Assembly: GCA_039815145.1 (NCBI GenBank)
Contig: JBCBZW010000036.1
Location: forward strand, 1-42,946
Direction of reading: 5' to 3'
Source: Pseudomonadota bacterium
GTDB lineage: Bacteria; Pseudomonadota; Gammaproteobacteria; Steroidobacterales; JBCBZW01
Length of the DNA stretch: 42,946 nucleotides
Position numbers and translations under genes: made by a program. This document shows, piece after piece, positions 3,787 through 42,515 of the stretch (position 1 is its first letter; every line of letters starts with the position of its first letter). The notes beneath the pieces are model-generated. The model was not told where the DNA came from. It did not search any database and saw only the letters and a program-made list of their open reading frames with translations.

Positions 3787-6234
3787 TCAAGGTTCTTTCT
3801 TGCGCAGCGAAGTTGGTGGGCTCTTTCGTATGATGGACGGCCTGCGGCGTTTCTCGAGCGGCGGACGTTCGCTGCGCCACGGGGCGCTGAGCTGCAGCGC
3901 GTGCGCCGGAATCTCTACGGTCACGTTGGCGCCCGCGATGCCGCTGGGCAGGTGTTCGTGCCCTGCTTTCACGGTGAAACCGAATGGACGCGCTAGCGTG
4001 AGCTCGGCAGTGCCATCTGCAGTGAGATTAGTTACCACAGTCGTTAGGTTCGTCGTCTCGCGGAACGGAAGCGTATAAACGCCAAGCTTTCCGAAATCGA
4101 GTGCGAGTTCGCCCTGCATTGCCACCTGCGGTGCCGCCCACACGCTATCGGCGCTGCTCGATGCCTCGAAATCCACGTCGGTCATCAGGGCGGCTTCGAA
4201 CGTCTTGAACGTCGCCACGGCGCGGACACCCGGGCGTAGGCGATCACCGGCCAACGTCACCTCAAACGGTGGTGGGTCGACGAGCCAGAGCATTTCCAGC
4301 ACAGCCCGAGGCATGGTCATCTGCCAGCGCCTACCCAGGCACTGCGCCATGGCCTCCGTGAGCTCCTCGAGCGCCTGGCCGGGTGCGGCCTCCGCCGGTG
4401 CGTCGATCGTGCGGTGTTGAAGCCCGGCGCTGGTGCGAATGAGCGTACGCAGGGGATAAGGTGCAGCGAAGAACTCATCGAGCGCTGCCTGACCTGGCGT
4501 TCGCGGAAACTGAATCTGCACGGTGCCATTCGGGGTCGGGGTGCCGGTCGCGGGCGTCCCGTCGGGCCAGTCCAGGCCGTACATCCGCGCGACCGCGATG
4601 GGTAGATCGCTGGGCGGATCGCCGAGGATGGCCGGGGGGCTACACATCTCCCCCTGTCCTTCGATGGTGAAACTGCCGCCATAACCGGTGTGCAGGTTGC
4701 TGCAGCTGCCCTGGACGCCGAACAGAAGGGCACCGTCACCAACCTCGAGCGGTTTTCGCGGCACGCCGGGATTCACCGGTGTGTTGGCGAACGCCGGCTT
4801 AGGCTCAATCGTGATCTTGCCAGACAGCGTCATGCTCTCGCCGCCCAGGGACCCGGCGCGAGCCCCTTCCAGCGAGATCCTACCGTGAGATGGGCCGTCG
4901 AAATCGACGGCGCGCGACAGATCAAAACGTTCTGGGCACAGGAGATCACCCGAAGGCTTTGCAACGCAGAATGACTGGCAGTCTGGATCAAGCGCATCGC
5001 AGCTGTCGCCCACGCCCTGACTGAGCGCGTCGGCGAGCGCTCCAAGCACGGCCTCGCTCACCGCGGCAAAGGCAGGTCCGTTCCCAAGACCGGCCTGTAC
5101 CGAGCAGATTTCAAGATCAGCCTGCGAGGCCTGCGCTGCGATGGAAACGTCATGCAGCAACCAATCGTCTGTGGCCTGATCGTCACGAAAGACGTCAACG
5201 ATGTTGATCACATCGACGTCGATATCGTTCGGGCAGACAGTTGCGCCTGCGGGTACCTGACCGCTCAGGTGAATATCGAGATACTCATCCGGCGGGTAGA
5301 TGCGCAATTCTGCGACCGGACCGGCCGTCAGGCGAAATCCTGGTATCGCATCGCATCCGGGGTCATCGTTGTCGTTCTGCTCACACCACACGCCGTCGCC
5401 GTCGAAATCCCGCTCGCAGCCGGCCCGCCTGGGGTTCGCTACACAGCCAAGTTCGCGGGCCATTTCTTCCCGGACATGCCGTTCTATGACGTCCTTCCCG
5501 AACCGAATCGACCAATCCTCACTAGAGAGCAAATTGCCTCGGTTCGGCAGCGTCAGGCCCGGGCCGCCGTTTTCAGCGTAAGGGCCATCGATCTCGAGCC
5601 GGATGAACAGCCCGAAACCGACCACGCCTATTGCCCATCGACTGAATCTCGCCCCTTCCGGCAGGAACCGTTCGATCAGTTCCATCGGAAGGTCGTAGCA
5701 CGGGATGTCGCCGAGTGCGCTGACAAGCGCAGGTGGGAGCTGGTCAGGCGCGATGCTCTTAAAGCTGCCGTATTCGACAGCATCCAGCGAGGCGCACAGG
5801 CTAGGCCTGGTATCGCCCTCGATCCGCCAGTTGTACTTCAACTCCACCGGCCAGGTGTCATAGAACGATGGGGCGGGGCTGAGGATATCGCTCGCGTCGC
5901 AATCGCGTGTCAGGCAGTCCGGTGGGCGCATGAAGAACTCCGCAGGGACCGACGTGCCGTTCCAGTCGGTGATGCCGGGTCGCCGCGGAATGTCGATGCG
6001 ATCCAACACGACCGGTGGGCTGTCCGGTTCGAATACGAACTCTTCAAGCGAGCAGATTTCCTGAACGTAGAAGTAGTCCCACAACAACTTCTCCAGAACT
6101 TCTGAATCGATGTGAATATCCACAATGCCGGTCTGGGCCATCGTGGACGTGGGCGTCCAGCAACCTACGAGGATTGAGAGAGCGCCAAGGACTATCGGGC
6201 GCCAGCACAGTGCATTTGCCATAGTGAACTCCAT
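3787..6234 (-). CDS. Large exported protein of unknown function (815 residues)
   Basis: I do not recognise this protein. Two ATGs compete: 6234, preceded by GGGAGGAA, and 6222, preceded by GGAG. Both give the same hydrophobic leader (roughly residues 10-25), which contains LSILVGC, a possible lipobox, and alternatively a signal-peptidase I site after MAQ. The mature protein is acidic and cysteine-containing, with no further membrane helix. One segment near residue 270-290 (D-F-D-G-D-G-V-W-C, then a run of Asn/Asp) resembles the Asp-rich calcium loops of extracellular proteins. Much of the rest reads as alternating short strands, as in secreted beta-rich proteins. The C-terminus is basic (RRRPSIIRKS). 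Its GC content looks lower by eye than that of its neighbours. It follows a multi-pass membrane protein by 15 bases on the same strand. A surface or periplasmic location is likely; no function can be assigned. Confidence 0.75.
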   Translation of the reverse strand: MEFTMANALCWRPIVLGALSILVGCWTPTSTMAQTGIVDIHIDSEVLEKLLWDYFYVQEICSLEEFVFEPDSPPVVLDRIDIPRRPGITDWNGTSVPAEFFMRPPDCLTRDCDASDILSPAPSFYDTWPVELKYNWRIEGDTRPSLCASLDAVEYGSFKSIAPDQLPPALVSALGDIPCYDLPMELIERFLPEGARFSRWAIGVVGFGLFIRLEIDGPYAENGGPGLTLPNRGNLLSSEDWSIRFGKDVIERHVREEMARELGCVANPRRAGCERDFDGDGVWCEQNDNDDPGCDAIPGFRLTAGPVAELRIYPPDEYLDIHLSGQVPAGATVCPNDIDVDVINIVDVFRDDQATDDWLLHDVSIAAQASQADLEICSVQAGLGNGPAFAAVSEAVLGALADALSQGVGDSCDALDPDCQSFCVAKPSGDLLCPERFDLSRAVDFDGPSHGRISLEGARAGSLGGESMTLSGKITIEPKPAFANTPVNPGVPRKPLEVGDGALLFGVQGSCSNLHTGYGGSFTIEGQGEMCSPPAILGDPPSDLPIAVARMYGLDWPDGTPATGTPTPNGTVQIQFPRTPGQAALDEFFAAPYPLRTLIRTSAGLQHRTIDAPAEAAPGQALEELTEAMAQCLGRRWQMTMPRAVLEMLWLVDPPPFEVTLAGDRLRPGVRAVATFKTFEAALMTDVDFEASSSADSVWAAPQVAMQGELALDFGKLGVYTLPFRETTNLTTVVTNLTADGTAELTLARPFGFTVKAGHEHLPSGIAGANVTVEIPAHALQLSAPWRSERPPLEKRRRPSIIRKSPPTSLRKKEP

Positions 6235-25631: not shown

Positions 25632-25651
25632 GCTCCCCGGCGCCGGGGAGC
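25632..25651. repeat. 20-bp perfect palindrome after the desaturase gene
   Basis: GCTCCCCGG and CCGGGGAGC flank a central CG, 12 bases after the desaturase stop codon. It could form a strong hairpin in the 3' untranslated region, next to the larger terminator hairpin at 25670. No T tract follows it directly. Confidence 0.5.
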
Positions 25652-38867: not shown

Positions 38868-39095
38868 TCAGCCGCCGCCCACCGCGTGCACGATTTCTAT
38901 CTGGTCGCCATCGCGAAGGCGCGCCTGGTCGTGCTGTGAGCGGGGCACGATCTCGCCGTTGCACTCGAGGGCGAAGCGCCGCCCCGCCAGGCGCAGGGCC
39001 TGCACGAGATCGGCGACCGTGGCGTCCCCCGCCAGGCGCACGGGGTCGCCGTTGGCGAGCACGGTGATCGCGTGGGTGTCGGCATGGGTGGTCAT
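38868..39095 (-). CDS. thiS: Sulfur carrier protein ThiS
   Basis: 75 residues with the ubiquitin-like fold pattern: an opening beta hairpin ([12 protein letters not shown]), then [21 protein letters not shown], and [14 protein letters not shown]. It ends in Gly-Gly-Gly, whose terminal glycine is adenylated by ThiF and turned into the thiocarboxylate used by ThiG. Neither thiF nor thiC is in the window. It is the first gene of the thiS-thiG-trmB cluster. Confidence 0.93.
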
Positions 39096-39137
39096 GGCGC
39101 CGCAGTGTACACGACGGCGCCCCCACCCCAGGCCGCG

Positions 39138-39323
39138 CTAGTCCTCGGGCTCGCGGCCCTTCGCCGGTGGGTCCGGCTCCGGCAGGCGTCCCGCCTCCTT
39201 GAGGGCGCGGCGGACGATGAACTCGAGCTGCGCGTTCATGCTGCGCAGGTCGTCATCGGCCCAGCGACGCAGGGCCGCGAGGGTGCGCGGGTCCGTGCGA
39301 AACAGAAAGGAGCTTCTTGCCAC
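39138..39323 (-). CDS. Small Arc/ribbon-helix-helix-type DNA-binding protein
   Basis: 61 residues from a GTG at 39323. A basic opening strand ([10 protein letters not shown]) is followed by two helices ([11 protein letters not shown] and [18 protein letters not shown]), the strand-helix-helix pattern of Arc repressors. S-M-N-A-Q-L-E-F is the Arc-like turn. A short Pro/Glu-rich tail ends the protein. It should dimerise and bind an inverted repeat through its first strand. It lies 88 bases after the SPFH gene on the same strand, and the 30-bp palindrome before that gene is the obvious candidate target. The GTG start has a poor ribosome-binding site. Confidence 0.75.
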
Positions 39324-39355
39324 GGCTTGCGCTTAACTCGTCCGGCGCGGAGCGC

Positions 39356-39372
39356 CCCCGCCCTCGGCGGGG
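39356..39372. terminator. GC hairpin between the SPFH and ribbon-helix-helix genes
   Basis: CCCCGCC (39356-39362) pairs with GGCGGGG (39366-39372) across 3 bases. It lies between two co-directional genes and has no T tract, so it might reduce read-through into the RHH gene rather than end transcription. Confidence 0.25.
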
Positions 39373-39411
39373 CAGGGGCAGACCGCGGTGTGTTCAGGTG
39401 CCATCGTAGGC

Positions 39412-40356
39412 TCAGCTGTAGAGCGTGCCGGCGTTCACCACCGGTTGCGTATGGCGGTCGCTACACAGCACCACAAGCAGGTTGGAGACCATCGAGGCGC
39501 GCTTCTCATCGTCGAGGTCCACGATTTCCTCCTTCACCAGGCGATCCAGCGCCATCTCCACCATCCCCACTGCGCCGTCGACGATACGCGAACGCGCCGC
39601 CACCACGGCTTGCGCCTGCTGGCGCTGGAGCATGGCCGCGGCGATCTCCGGCGCGTAGGCGAGGTGGCTGATCCGCGCCTCGACCACCTCCACGCCCGCC
39701 GTTTCGAGCCGGTCCTGGATGTCCTGGCGCAGTTCGGCGCAGATCTCCTGCGTGCTGCCGCGCAGGGACGTGTCATGGTCCTCGCTATCGTAGGGGTGGC
39801 GGCTGGCGAGGTTGCGCAGGGCTGCCTCGCTCTGCACGGCGACGAAGTCCTCGTAGTCGTCCACCTCGAACAGGGCCTCGGCCGTGTCCACCACCTTCCA
39901 GACCACCACGGCGGAGATCTCGATGGGGTTGCCGTCGCGATCGTTCACCTTGGACGGGCGGCCCGAGGTACGGGCCTTCTGCTGCACCACCTTGCCCTCG
40001 GCGTTCTTCTTCTCGGGCGTGGTGATGGAGCCGGTCTCGAAGTTGCGCACGCGGCGGCTGATGCGCTTCTTGGAGAAGAAGGGGTTTACCCAGTAGAAGC
40101 CCGATTTGGTGATCGAGCCCTTGTAGTGGCCGAACAGGAGTAGGACCCGGGCGTCGTTCGGGGCGATGGCGACGAAGCCGAAGACGATGGCCACCGCGGT
40201 GGCCATGAGCACTAGCGCCACCGGCACGCCGACAGACTTCAGGGCCGGGTTCGGAGCCGAGTGGATGAGCAGGGCGAGCCCGCCAAGGAACAGGGCGGGG
40301 CAGGTGATGAGGGCCAGCCATCCGGTGGCGGCGTTGTAGGTTTTTTCGGTCGACAT
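39412..40356 (-). CDS. SPFH-domain membrane protein
   Basis: 314 residues from the ATG at 40356 (GGAGA upstream). Two hydrophobic helices at ~12-31 and ~42-63 form a hairpin anchor. The SPFH (band 7) domain follows (~65-255), with [24 protein letters not shown] and [15 protein letters not shown]. The last ~50 residues are a helical tail. Proteins of this kind cluster in membrane microdomains and scaffold other proteins; the cargo is not known. It precedes an Arc-type regulator gene on the same strand, a combination that recurs in proteobacteria. The 30-bp palindrome lies 23-52 bases upstream of its start codon. Confidence 0.86.
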
Positions 40357-40378
40357 GAGCGCTTCTCCAGCGGCTGAG

Positions 40379-40408
40379 CGATATCTAAGTGATATCACTT
40401 TGATAGCG
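40379..40408. promoter_or_regulatory. 30-bp near-perfect palindrome upstream of the SPFH gene, candidate operator
   Basis: The centre AAGTGATATCACTT (40387-40400) is a perfect 14-bp palindrome. The flanks extend the symmetry to 30 bp, with 13 of 15 positions per arm pairing (CGATATCT left, TGATAGCG right). The site lies 23-52 bases before the SPFH start codon, where the promoter should be. A ribbon-helix-helix protein encoded in the same operon is the natural binder. Confidence 0.62.
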
Positions 40409-40661
40409 ACCGGAGCAAGCGAGAGGTGTCTTCTAGCTAGATGGTAATTTCTAGTGTTAGTTTACTAGTAAATAAAAGTTTCTAAAAATAAAATTAAACC
40501 AGGAAGTTAGGGCTTCTTGTCTTTGGTCAATCCACTCGGCCGACCCAGGGCTCGAAGTGTTGCGCCGAACGCTGGATCGAGCCAGGAGTCGTGATGCGAT
40601 GAGCTTCCAGATTTGCGCGAAAGCCCCAACGCTCGAATGATTCTGGCGCGTGGGGCGACGA
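40409..40661. other. Noncoding spacer with AT-rich island
   Basis: The 305 bases between the DUF885 stop and the SPFH start hold no convincing gene. The stretch ~40430-40500 is very AT-rich against a GC-rich background and contains a perfect 12-bp palindrome TTTACTAGTAAA at 40461-40472. This could be an UP element, a nucleoid-protein site or a second operator for the SPFH operon. Bases 40500-40660 return to normal composition, and I see nothing recognisable there. Confidence 0.5.
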
Positions 40662-42515
40662 TCACCGCGCCGCCAACTTCTCTGCCACAAACCGCTCGAT
40701 CATCCCCTCCAGCACCGGCAGGGGCACACCCCCCTCGCTCAACACCCGGTCGTGGAATTCGCGCACGTCGAAGTCAGCCCCCAGCGCCTCCCGCGCCCGC
40801 TCGCGCAGTTCGATGATCTTCAGCTCCCCGATCTTGTAGGCCAGGGCCTGGCCCGGCCAGGCGATGTAGCGGTCGATCTCCGTGCGCACCTCCAGCAAGG
40901 ACAGGGCGGTGTTGCTGCTCAGGTAGTCGAGCGCGTGCTGCCGACTCCAGCCCTTGGCATGCATGCCCGTGTCCACCACCAGGCGGCAGGCGCTCCACAT
41001 CTCGTAGGTGAGGCGGCCGAAGTCCTCGTAGGGCGTCTCGTACATGCCCATCTCGACGCCGAGCTTCTCGGAGTAAAGGCCCCAGCCCTCACCGAAGGCA
41101 TGGGGATAGATGTGGCGTCGGAAGTTGGGGCGACCCTCGAGTTCCTTCGCGAGCGCGGCTTGCAGGTGATGGCCGGGGACGGCCTCATGCAGGGTGAGGG
41201 CGGGCAGGGTGTAGAGGGTGCGCTTGTCCAGGGCGTAGGTGTTCACCCAGTACTCGCCGGAGCGGGATCCGCTGAGGGGAGCGCCGGAGTAGCGCCCGCT
41301 GGTGTAGTTTGGGGCAATCGCCAGGGGGACGGGGGCGACCGTGTAGGGTTGGCGCGGGAGTTTGCCGAAGAACTTAGGTAGTTGACCATCCGCCTTCTTG
41401 GCCAGATAGGAGGCATGCATCAGCAGCTCGCGCGGCGTCTGCACGTAGAACTGGGGATCGCTGCGCAGGAAAGCGAGGAATTCAGCGAAGCTGCCCTCGA
41501 AGCCCACCTCCTCGATGATGGCCTCCATCTCGGCGCGGATCCGCGCGACTTCCGCCAGGCCCTTCTGGTGAACCTGCTCGGGCGTGAGGTCCAGATTCGT
41601 GTAGAAGCGGACTTCGCCGGCGTAGTAGGCCTCGCCCTCGGGCAGCTCGCTCGCCCCGAGGTTGGTGCGGGCATTGGGGATGTACTCCTCGACGAAGAAG
41701 CGATGGAACTCGCGCAGGGCCGGCATGACCTCCACTTCCATGCTGTAGCGGCCTACTTCAGGCAGGGCAGCGGCCAGTTCGTCGTCGACCCCCGGCGGCA
41801 GATTGAGGAAGGGTTGGAAGAGGGGGCTGTCCTCGATCTCGGTGGTGGCGACGGCTTCCACCACCCCGGCCACGTCCTCGAGGATGATCGCCGGCAGGGT
41901 GAAGCCGTCGGCGAGGCCCTGCCGCATGTTCTCCATGTTCTCCTCGAGATAGTTGGGGAACGCGGAGAGCCGGCGCAGCCAGGCCTGGTAGTCCTCGGTG
42001 GTGCGGAACGGCTGGGAGCGGACGGCCCAGTTCAGGGTCATGTAGAAGCCCGAGTCGCTGTTCAGCGGAATGCGATAGGCGCGGAAGCGCGCCCGGTCCG
42101 CCCGGTGGCGCAGCATGAAGGCGAAGACGTCGTAGTTCACCTTGTCCGCTTCGGAGAGGGCCTCGCGCTCGATCTTCTCAAGGCGTGCCTGGAACTGGCT
42201 CGCGGCGGCGGCCCGGCGCAGGTGATCGCGCGGCGCGGCACCCGGCAAGAGGTGGTCGTAGCGGTGGTCGCCCACGGAGGTGGCGAGGAGCGGGTTCTCG
42301 CGTAGGCGGAACTCCCATTCGTCCTCGAACAGGGCGTACAGCGCGACCGTGGGATCCTCGGCCGGCTCGTCGGCTGCCTCGTTGGGGGCTGGCGCGGGAG
42401 GTTCGGCGATCGGTGGCATCACCGGTGGCGTCTGCGGGTGGGCCTGGGCGAGGGCTGAGGTGGCGCTGGCAGCGCACAGCAGCAGGCAGGCGATCAGGGC
42501 GAAGACACGGCTCAT
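40662..42515 (-). CDS. Exported DUF885 family metallopeptidase-like protein
   Basis: 617 residues. A signal peptide (~5-24, cleaved after A-L-A) is followed by a Pro-rich linker (~25-50) and the DUF885 domain. The zinc-site motif H-E-A-V-P-G-H-H starts at residue 443, and the third-ligand region E-G-W-G-L-Y-S-E at 476, both typical of the family, which is related to gluzincin-type peptidases. The mature enzyme is probably periplasmic or a surface protein, acting on peptides. Its substrate is unknown. It is a single-gene transcription unit on this strand, ending before the AT-rich spacer. Confidence 0.92.
   Translation of the reverse strand: MSRVFALIACLLLCAASATSALAQAHPQTPPVMPPIAEPPAPAPNEAADEPAEDPTVALYALFEDEWEFRLRENPLLATSVGDHRYDHLLPGAAPRDHLRRAAAASQFQARLEKIEREALSEADKVNYDVFAFMLRHRADRARFRAYRIPLNSDSGFYMTLNWAVRSQPFRTTEDYQAWLRRLSAFPNYLEENMENMRQGLADGFTLPAIILEDVAGVVEAVATTEIEDSPLFQPFLNLPPGVDDELAAALPEVGRYSMEVEVMPALREFHRFFVEEYIPNARTNLGASELPEGEAYYAGEVRFYTNLDLTPEQVHQKGLAEVARIRAEMEAIIEEVGFEGSFAEFLAFLRSDPQFYVQTPRELLMHASYLAKKADGQLPKFFGKLPRQPYTVAPVPLAIAPNYTSGRYSGAPLSGSRSGEYWVNTYALDKRTLYTLPALTLHEAVPGHHLQAALAKELEGRPNFRRHIYPHAFGEGWGLYSEKLGVEMGMYETPYEDFGRLTYEMWSACRLVVDTGMHAKGWSRQHALDYLSSNTALSLLEVRTEIDRYIAWPGQALAYKIGELKIIELRERAREALGADFDVREFHDRVLSEGGVPLPVLEGMIERFVAEKLAAR

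Follow-up and report, generated by a model that had tools for sequence, protein, structure and literature searches.

Tandem TGATATCA boxes as a candidate operator of an SPFH and Arc-like ribbon-helix-helix gene pair

Introduction

What is a near-palindrome of 30 bp doing directly ahead of a gene for an SPFH membrane protein, and does it have anything to do with the small gene for a ribbon-helix-helix (RHH) protein that follows? RHH proteins bind DNA as dimers, and adjacent dimers can cooperate. An earlier note on this DNA placed the palindrome at the promoter of a self-regulated scaffold operon, in which a DNA-binding protein is paired with a membrane protein. Here, we follow up this proposal in the stretch of DNA that was analyzed (the window; 42,946 nucleotides, one contig of a 6.0-Mb assembly) and in relatives of the two genes across bacteria.

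Results

The locus and its 30-bp element

The features of the locus are listed by their coordinates in the window:

39138..39323, minus strand: Arc-like RHH gene, 61 residues, GTG start; its family profile finds P22 Arc among PDB chains
39412..40356, minus strand: SPFH / Band 7 gene, 314 residues; Pfam PF01145, E = 5.1e-25; AlphaFold2 mean pLDDT 80
40379..40386, minus strand: Box 3, AGATATCG on the minus strand, a 6/8 match to TGATATCA
40390..40397, minus strand: Box 2, the central box, exact TGATATCA (8/8), core of the reported palindrome
40401..40408, minus strand: Box 1, CGCTATCA on the minus strand, a 6/8 match to TGATATCA

The SPFH gene has a DUF885 gene as its upstream neighbor, and the RHH gene is followed by ThiS and ThiG genes. 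The 61-residue Arc-like gene indeed comes after SPFH on the same strand, as the earlier note had it, with an open reading frame that starts 88 bp past the SPFH stop. The palindrome, CGATATCTAAGTGATATCACTTTGATAGCG at 40379–40408, was also described correctly in sequence and coordinates: it is symmetric in 13 of 15 pairs when compared with its own reverse complement, its perfectly symmetric 14-bp core lies at 40387–40400, and it sits 23–52 bases upstream of the SPFH ATG (40356, minus strand). Under a first-order Markov model, 0.28 sites with at least 13/15 symmetric pairs are expected per window, and for perfect palindromes of 14 bp or longer the same model predicts 5.9 where 13 are seen. Because of this excess, symmetry alone is no evidence, and we rejected the palindrome as such as an argument, such palindromes not being rare in the window.

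The reported 30 bp correspond exactly to three 8-bp boxes of the TGATATCA type, spaced 11 bp apart. The site picked out in the earlier note stands, but its unit is an 8-bp TGATATCA box repeated every 11 bp and not a single long palindrome. Perfect 20-bp palindromes also occur in the window at 40187–40206 and 25632–25651 (0.12 of at least 20 bp are expected per window); the former lies within the SPFH reading frame and is not conserved in the sister species.

Co-occurrence of the boxes and the RHH gene

We read the box consensus by eye from a first set of 30 orthologous loci and afterwards scored it on other sets, using as the site score the number of matches, out of 16 positions, to two TGATATCA boxes at 11-bp spacing. 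The first set came from a search of 97 genomes (the window's and 96 relatives) with the SPFH protein, which returned 30 loci including that of the window. In 29 of these 30, SPFH is followed by the RHH gene, across a gap of about 350 bp in three, and all 29 score at least 13/16; L031, the sole locus of the set that has no RHH gene, is also without boxes. A phylum-wide draw of 398 genomes yielded 48 with an RHH match, 43 of them strong (window included) and 5 weak. All 43 strong RHH loci have both SPFH upstream and the site, and the 5 weak matches (E = 5.0e-6 to 9.9e-4) all lack SPFH upstream. The SPFH subfamily was present at E < 1e-50 in 46 of the 398 genomes, which leaves 3 without the RHH gene, and none of these 3 RHH-free SPFH loci carries the site (scores of 10, 11 and 10).

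Two further sets gave a similar picture. A contig scan of named genomes, which overlaps the first set through shared contigs, covered the best 80 of 183 loci encoding a relative; SPFH is upstream in 77 among these best 80, and the site is present in 77/77. From a plasmid collection, we analyzed 17 of the 28 records with an SPFH match and 9 of the 10 with an RHH match. The SPFH regions with a canonical RHH gene score 13–16 (8/8), and the 7 without one score 7–11 (0/7); the remaining two, on plasmids of Bosea and Rhizobium, have diverged RHHs and score 12 and 10. Other SPFH paralogues (17 selected, one of them from the window's genome) had no RHH gene, and their site scores were 7–10.

We then combined 170 loci of the SPFH subfamily, some of them redundant (the window entered twice) and many from uncultured genomes of one gammaproteobacterial group. 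Where the RHH gene follows directly, a score of 13/16 or more is reached by 157 of 159 loci, the exceptions being Bosea (12) and Rhizobium (10); without it, all 11 score 7–11, so that none reaches 13/16. Removal of identical and short SPFH rows left the site in 142/144 loci with the RHH gene versus 0/10 without. Lack of a conserved palindrome upstream of orthologous pairs had been named in the earlier note as grounds for abandoning the idea, and the counts of 157/159 and 0/11 come down on the side of conservation. Excluded from these counts were L105–L109 (weak RHH, no SPFH), L139 (no SPFH), and L156 and L165, where the RHH gene is close to a contig end; in the L165 genome, SPFH on a different contig has a 14/16 site, and the L156 genome holds SPFH fragments only. 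The gap between SPFH and RHH has a median of 23.5 bp and measures 100 bp or less in 114 of 118 loci. It exceeds 240 bp in seven loci (L026, L062, L066, L184, L028, L030 and L077), and the open reading frame in this gap, where present, differs from locus to locus (97 residues in L026; 81, hydrophobic, in L062; 59 in L184).

Orphan and diverged RHH genes

Two RHHs of the same type, Thermus L199 and L139, have neither SPFH nor boxes. L199 is the Thermus thermophilus plasmid pTthSNM1-7c, on which the RHH gene (2477–2668) lies behind ABC permease and ATPase genes; SPFH is absent from the 5 kb examined, and a TGATATCA array is absent just upstream of the RHH gene. It is possible that the ABC transporter genes are a second cargo of this type of repressor. 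The L139 RHH gene, at about 4001–4180, is an orphan between two open reading frames that we take to be CorC-like and Lnt-like, with no SPFH of the subfamily in the genome and no site in the locus. Given these two orphans, this type of RHH is not absolutely bound to SPFH.

The two low-scoring loci of the combined set have diverged RHHs: in Rhizobium (L201), the match is at E = 1.1e-13 and the site reaches only 10/16, and in Bosea (L200), the strand reads EALSLR and the site reaches 12/16. In the Bosea and Rhizobium upstream regions, no repeat at a spacing of 10, 11, 12 or 22 bp passed our filter, and the diverged sites still contain single GATATC sequences. Judging from these sequences, operator specificity may possibly have changed in Hyphomicrobiales.

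Spacing and number of boxes

With boxes 11 bp apart, a score of 14/16 is attained by 110 of 115 promoters; with any one of the other spacings between 8 and 16 bp, it is attained by 0 to 5. In Markov shuffles, a score of 13 is seen in 0.5 of 115 and a score of 14 never, and a coding control does not exceed 10. The best box is exact TGATATCA in 104 of the 115 aligned sites. Relative to this box, the mean match is 5.9/8 at +11 bp and 4.5/8 at −11 bp, and it drops to about 2/8 at distances of 22 and 33 bp on either side. Most loci have two good boxes (88 of 115), with three in 25 and one in 2.

Position of the boxes relative to promoters

The earlier description of the element as lying at the promoter was not borne out in the window itself, where no sigma-70 consensus match was found at 40330–40520. 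Promoter-like hexamers occur in many of the loci compared. A TTGACA-like −35 hexamer (at least 4/6) begins 17 bp upstream of box 1 in 44 of 113 loci, and in 37 of 113 it is joined, over a 17-bp spacer, by a −10-like hexamer; any other offset tried gave at most 6. The −10-like hexamer extends from base 6 of box 1 to where box 2 starts. A promoter of some kind overlaps the array in 70 of the 113 loci, a set dominated by related gammaproteobacteria, compared with a mean of 35 and a largest value of 45 when the upstream 40 bp were shuffled (20 trials). The first box itself looks like a −35 hexamer in 76 of the 113, so the promoter may also be arranged in other ways.

One target or a regulon

We searched for GATATCANNNTGATATC, allowing at most one mismatch, in 97 genomes, of which 29 bear the gene pair and 68 do not. 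All 29 pair-bearing genomes match the motif at the SPFH locus. In the window's genome, the 40379–40408 site is the sole match, and the 6.0-Mb assembly yielded no second copy of the 14-mer with up to two mismatches. Off-locus matches numbered 16 in the 29 pair-bearing genomes (101 Mb) versus 15 in the 68 others (190 Mb), a density of 0.158 versus 0.079 per Mb, or about twofold (p = 0.06); matches to a reversed-pattern control were rarer, though its composition differs from that of the motif. Among the 16 off-locus matches in pair-bearing genomes, 14 sit within stretches of 90 or more codons uninterrupted by a stop, and we found no convincing second target beyond the SPFH–RHH operon among them. 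In the genomes tested, a single clear site is the norm. Given the roughly doubled density of off-locus matches where the pair is present, a small regulon with a few targets beyond the operon may exist.

Taxonomic spread and the SPFH tree

Named carriers of the site fall in nine phyla. Those in Pseudomonadota include Dyella, Arenimonas, Alteromonas, Maritalea and Qipengyuania. Further carriers belong to Acidobacteriota, Gemmatimonadota, Candidatus Eiseniibacteriota and Myxococcota; these are uncultured assemblies, and mis-binning is therefore possible in their rows. The plasmid collection added Deinococcota, Bacteroidota (Prevotella, Parabacteroides and Phocaeicola) and Bacillota (Acetoanaerobium), and Actinomycetota are represented by Nonomuraea, in an 11.85-Mb record filed as a plasmid. 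The site is not a local feature but one common to distant phyla.

We also mapped the site (threshold here 12/16) and the RHH gene on a tree of 80 SPFH rows. Supported branches require at least 3 changes in whether the RHH gene is present, and RHH-free rows appear among the carriers in two places (Deinococcus radiophilus together with D. proteolyticus, and L238). The site follows the RHH gene in about 2.9 of 3 independent pairs and never goes the opposite way, which is too few for significance (p = 0.25). The RHH gene and the boxes vanish together, in a small number of independent cases. Because independent events are few and branches are long, we claim agreement in presence and absence only, and no order of gain and loss.

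The two proteins

Compared with the PDB, the RHH family profile matches tandem Arc at E = 3.1e-8 and plain Arc at 9.1e-5 (Arc chains span 3.1e-8 to 3.3e-3), with weak matches to Mnt (0.083) and AmrZ (0.57). Pfam Arc is matched at E ≤ 0.1 by 25 of 26 family members; the window's RHH by itself gives E = 0.012, under the curated cut-off. The N-terminal strand of the family mostly reads [KR]K-[ASP]-[FY]-[APL]-[LM]-R, and that of the window's protein is divergent (SSFLFR). AlphaFold2 predicts helices and no strand for the RHH, this being a monomer model of a dimeric fold class. The family alignment shows no conserved C-terminal tail that could hold a partner. In the plasmid records NZ_CP097154 and NZ_CP098495, the RHH proteins are named “PTS ascorbate transporter subunit IIC” and “toxin-antitoxin system HicB family antitoxin,” names that are probably wrong. 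Three faecal fragments filed as “Bacteriophage sp.” (MT838963, MT840070 and MT836356) also match the RHH and may be phage or host DNA.

The SPFH protein belongs to the SPFH superfamily by its SPFH/Band 7 domain (PF01145). The AlphaFold2 model of the window's protein has N-terminal helices at 12–33 and 37–58, followed by the SPFH domain and a long helix, and through the two predicted helices the protein probably sits in the membrane. Foldseek matched this model to stomatin, HflK, QmcA and prohibitin, with E values from 6.4e-10 (stomatin) and TM-scores by query length of about 0.4. In sequence, the protein is far from HflK, stomatin and QmcA (best E = 1.3e-4, to HflK), and we rejected its assignment to the HflK subfamily, as it scores 24.3 bits with NCBIfam TIGR01933, for which the cut-off is 159.4. 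Residues 112–135 of the window's SPFH (39952–40023 in the window) form a stretch of 24 residues that is missing in more than 80% of 35 relatives and mostly has low confidence in the AlphaFold2 model. Ahead of the two predicted helices, the N-terminus has on average 2.4 K+R versus 1.25 D+E across 36 aligned proteins (one of each in the window's SPFH). By the positive-inside rule, which orients membrane helices, this excess is a weak hint that the SPFH domain lies on the cytoplasmic side.

Discussion

A self-repressed operon and its alternatives

We consider it highly probable that the 30 bp act as the operator through which a dedicated SPFH–RHH operon is repressed by its own Arc-like RHH, with dimers bound side by side. 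The self-regulated scaffold operon of the earlier note, with its DNA-binding protein and membrane protein, appears well supported by comparison of the loci, in which the boxes track the RHH gene. A regulator gene does lie behind the putative operator, RHH being downstream of SPFH on the same strand. In the mechanism that we propose, SPFH would be encoded first and RHH second on one transcript. Each TGATATCA box would take one dimer of the small Arc-like RHH encoded by the second gene, and two or three such dimers would adjoin about one helical turn (11 bp) apart, as Arc dimers do on their operator. This array would lie over the promoter's −10 region, and the repressor would thereby control how much is made both of itself and of the SPFH scaffold. 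Binding by the RHH, repression, co-transcription and cooperativity are what we infer; because the boxes are one turn apart, likely overlap the −10 hexamer and have the regulator just downstream, autorepression is the simplest reading. These sequence comparisons point to SPFH–RHH as an ancient self-controlled two-gene unit.

A different emphasis is that the RHH binds the boxes but the main point is the partnership, in that SPFH or the state of the membrane holds or releases the RHH, or SPFH acts as co-repressor, to give a membrane-coupled switch. This would suit the close tie of the RHH to one SPFH subfamily, which lies upstream of 43/43 strong RHHs in the phylum-wide draw, and the basic SPFH N-terminus, which weakly suggests a cytoplasmic SPFH domain. 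We nevertheless hold it to be rather unlikely: the RHH alignment has no conserved partner-binding C-terminal tail, two RHHs of this type lack an SPFH partner, and plain autorepression explains the observations. Similarly doubtful is the more specific idea of SPFH as a sensor, in which the assembly state of the scaffold would hold or free the Arc-like repressor and a membrane condition would thereby be read into scaffold transcription. If true, this would be a minimal two-gene membrane thermostat kept in at least nine bacterial phyla.

It is very unlikely, in our assessment, that the TGATATCA boxes are bound by a different transcription factor, with its gene elsewhere, and that the RHH is a co-inherited passenger or acts at other places. 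The somewhat denser off-locus motif matches in pair-bearing genomes would agree with such a factor, as would the pairing of usual boxes with a divergent RHH strand (SSFLFR) in the window. However, the RHH gene and the boxes occur together in 157/159 loci and are jointly absent in 11/11, and the spacing of the boxes fits an array of RHH dimers. Unlike the pattern for a global regulator, there is no second 14-mer in the window's genome, and 14/16 off-locus matches fall in open frames. It seems most improbable that the array is no operator and has been kept because SPFH transcription or translation needs it as a promoter, DNA-bending or RNA element. The boxes do overlap a likely −10 hexamer in many loci, and the 14-bp palindrome could pair in RNA, but SPFH genes of the same subfamily without the RHH gene have no array, the 11-bp periodicity is sharp, and there is no Rfam match at 39000–40700.

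Relation to known systems

The proposed autorepressor operon recalls that of P22 Arc, in which the half-site spacing is 11 bp and Q9 and N11 contact bases. The RHH profile matches Arc chains with homology over the strand-helix-helix, the N-terminal strand ends in an Arg aligned with Arc R13, the RS.N turn and helix 2 are conserved, and the boxes are tandem subsites about one helical turn apart. In contrast to Arc, the residues aligned with Q9 are mostly A/S/P and those aligned with N11 mostly A/P/L; with these two positions changed, the protein must recognize DNA differently from Arc. The sites differ as well, being two or three TGATATCA boxes and not Arc half-sites, and the partner gene encodes a membrane scaffold.

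RelB/RelE-type operons offer a second comparison. RelE is a co-repressor for RelB, and in type II toxin-antitoxin modules the antitoxin gene usually comes first. These operons share with the present locus a small RHH of a two-gene operon and tandem repeats near its own promoter; here, however, the partner is SPFH and not a toxin, the RHH comes second, and the alignment shows no conserved C-terminal tail for partner binding. We accordingly rejected a type II toxin-antitoxin module, both by gene order, as the RHH is second in the SPFH+RHH loci of the first set, the phylum-wide draw, the contig scan and the plasmids, and by the partner, which has only PF01145 in Pfam and no match in PADLOC, a defence library. 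Passages of a RelB study (PMC2812701) describe dimers that bind one face of the DNA at tandem repeats, with half-site spacing being critical.

The locus also resembles SPFH–NfeD operons (stomatin-like SPFH1, flotillin-like SPFH2 and SPFH5) in having an SPFH membrane protein in a conserved two-gene operon, but its second gene encodes a DNA-binding RHH and not NfeD. We rejected such an operon for the window, where SPFH is adjoined by DUF885 and by RHH, ThiS and ThiG, and no NfeD is present. In the relevant passages of a survey of 12 SPFH subfamilies (Hinderhofer et al. 2009, PMC2636767), NfeD partners are reported for SPFH1, 2 and 5 only. The term “DNA-binding” is absent from the main text of this survey and from that of a Pseudomonas aeruginosa SPFH study (PMC13086221), and the ribbon-helix-helix term occurs in the searchable text of PMC8656257 solely within a reference on VirC2. 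Our search of open-access literature, as far as its texts are searchable, found no published account of an SPFH–RHH pair or of the TGATATCA site.

Implications

An Arc-like autorepressor operon with a membrane scaffold as its cargo would be of a known kind, with a cargo that is new. Bacterial SPFH proteins appear in the literature sampled here as scaffolds, protease partners and membrane organizers, and control of their dose is not the subject of those texts. The natural pairs form a large collection for studying the specificity of RHH–DNA recognition, and they suggest a better name for small genes that are currently labelled HicB antitoxin, hypothetical protein or PTS subunit. For the SPFH family, the finding means that one subfamily apparently comes with a dedicated repressor and operator, an arrangement conserved in phyla that range from Pseudomonadota to Bacteroidota, Deinococcota, Actinomycetota and Bacillota. 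This would provide a defined promoter, site and mutant with which to ask when cells need more SPFH scaffold.
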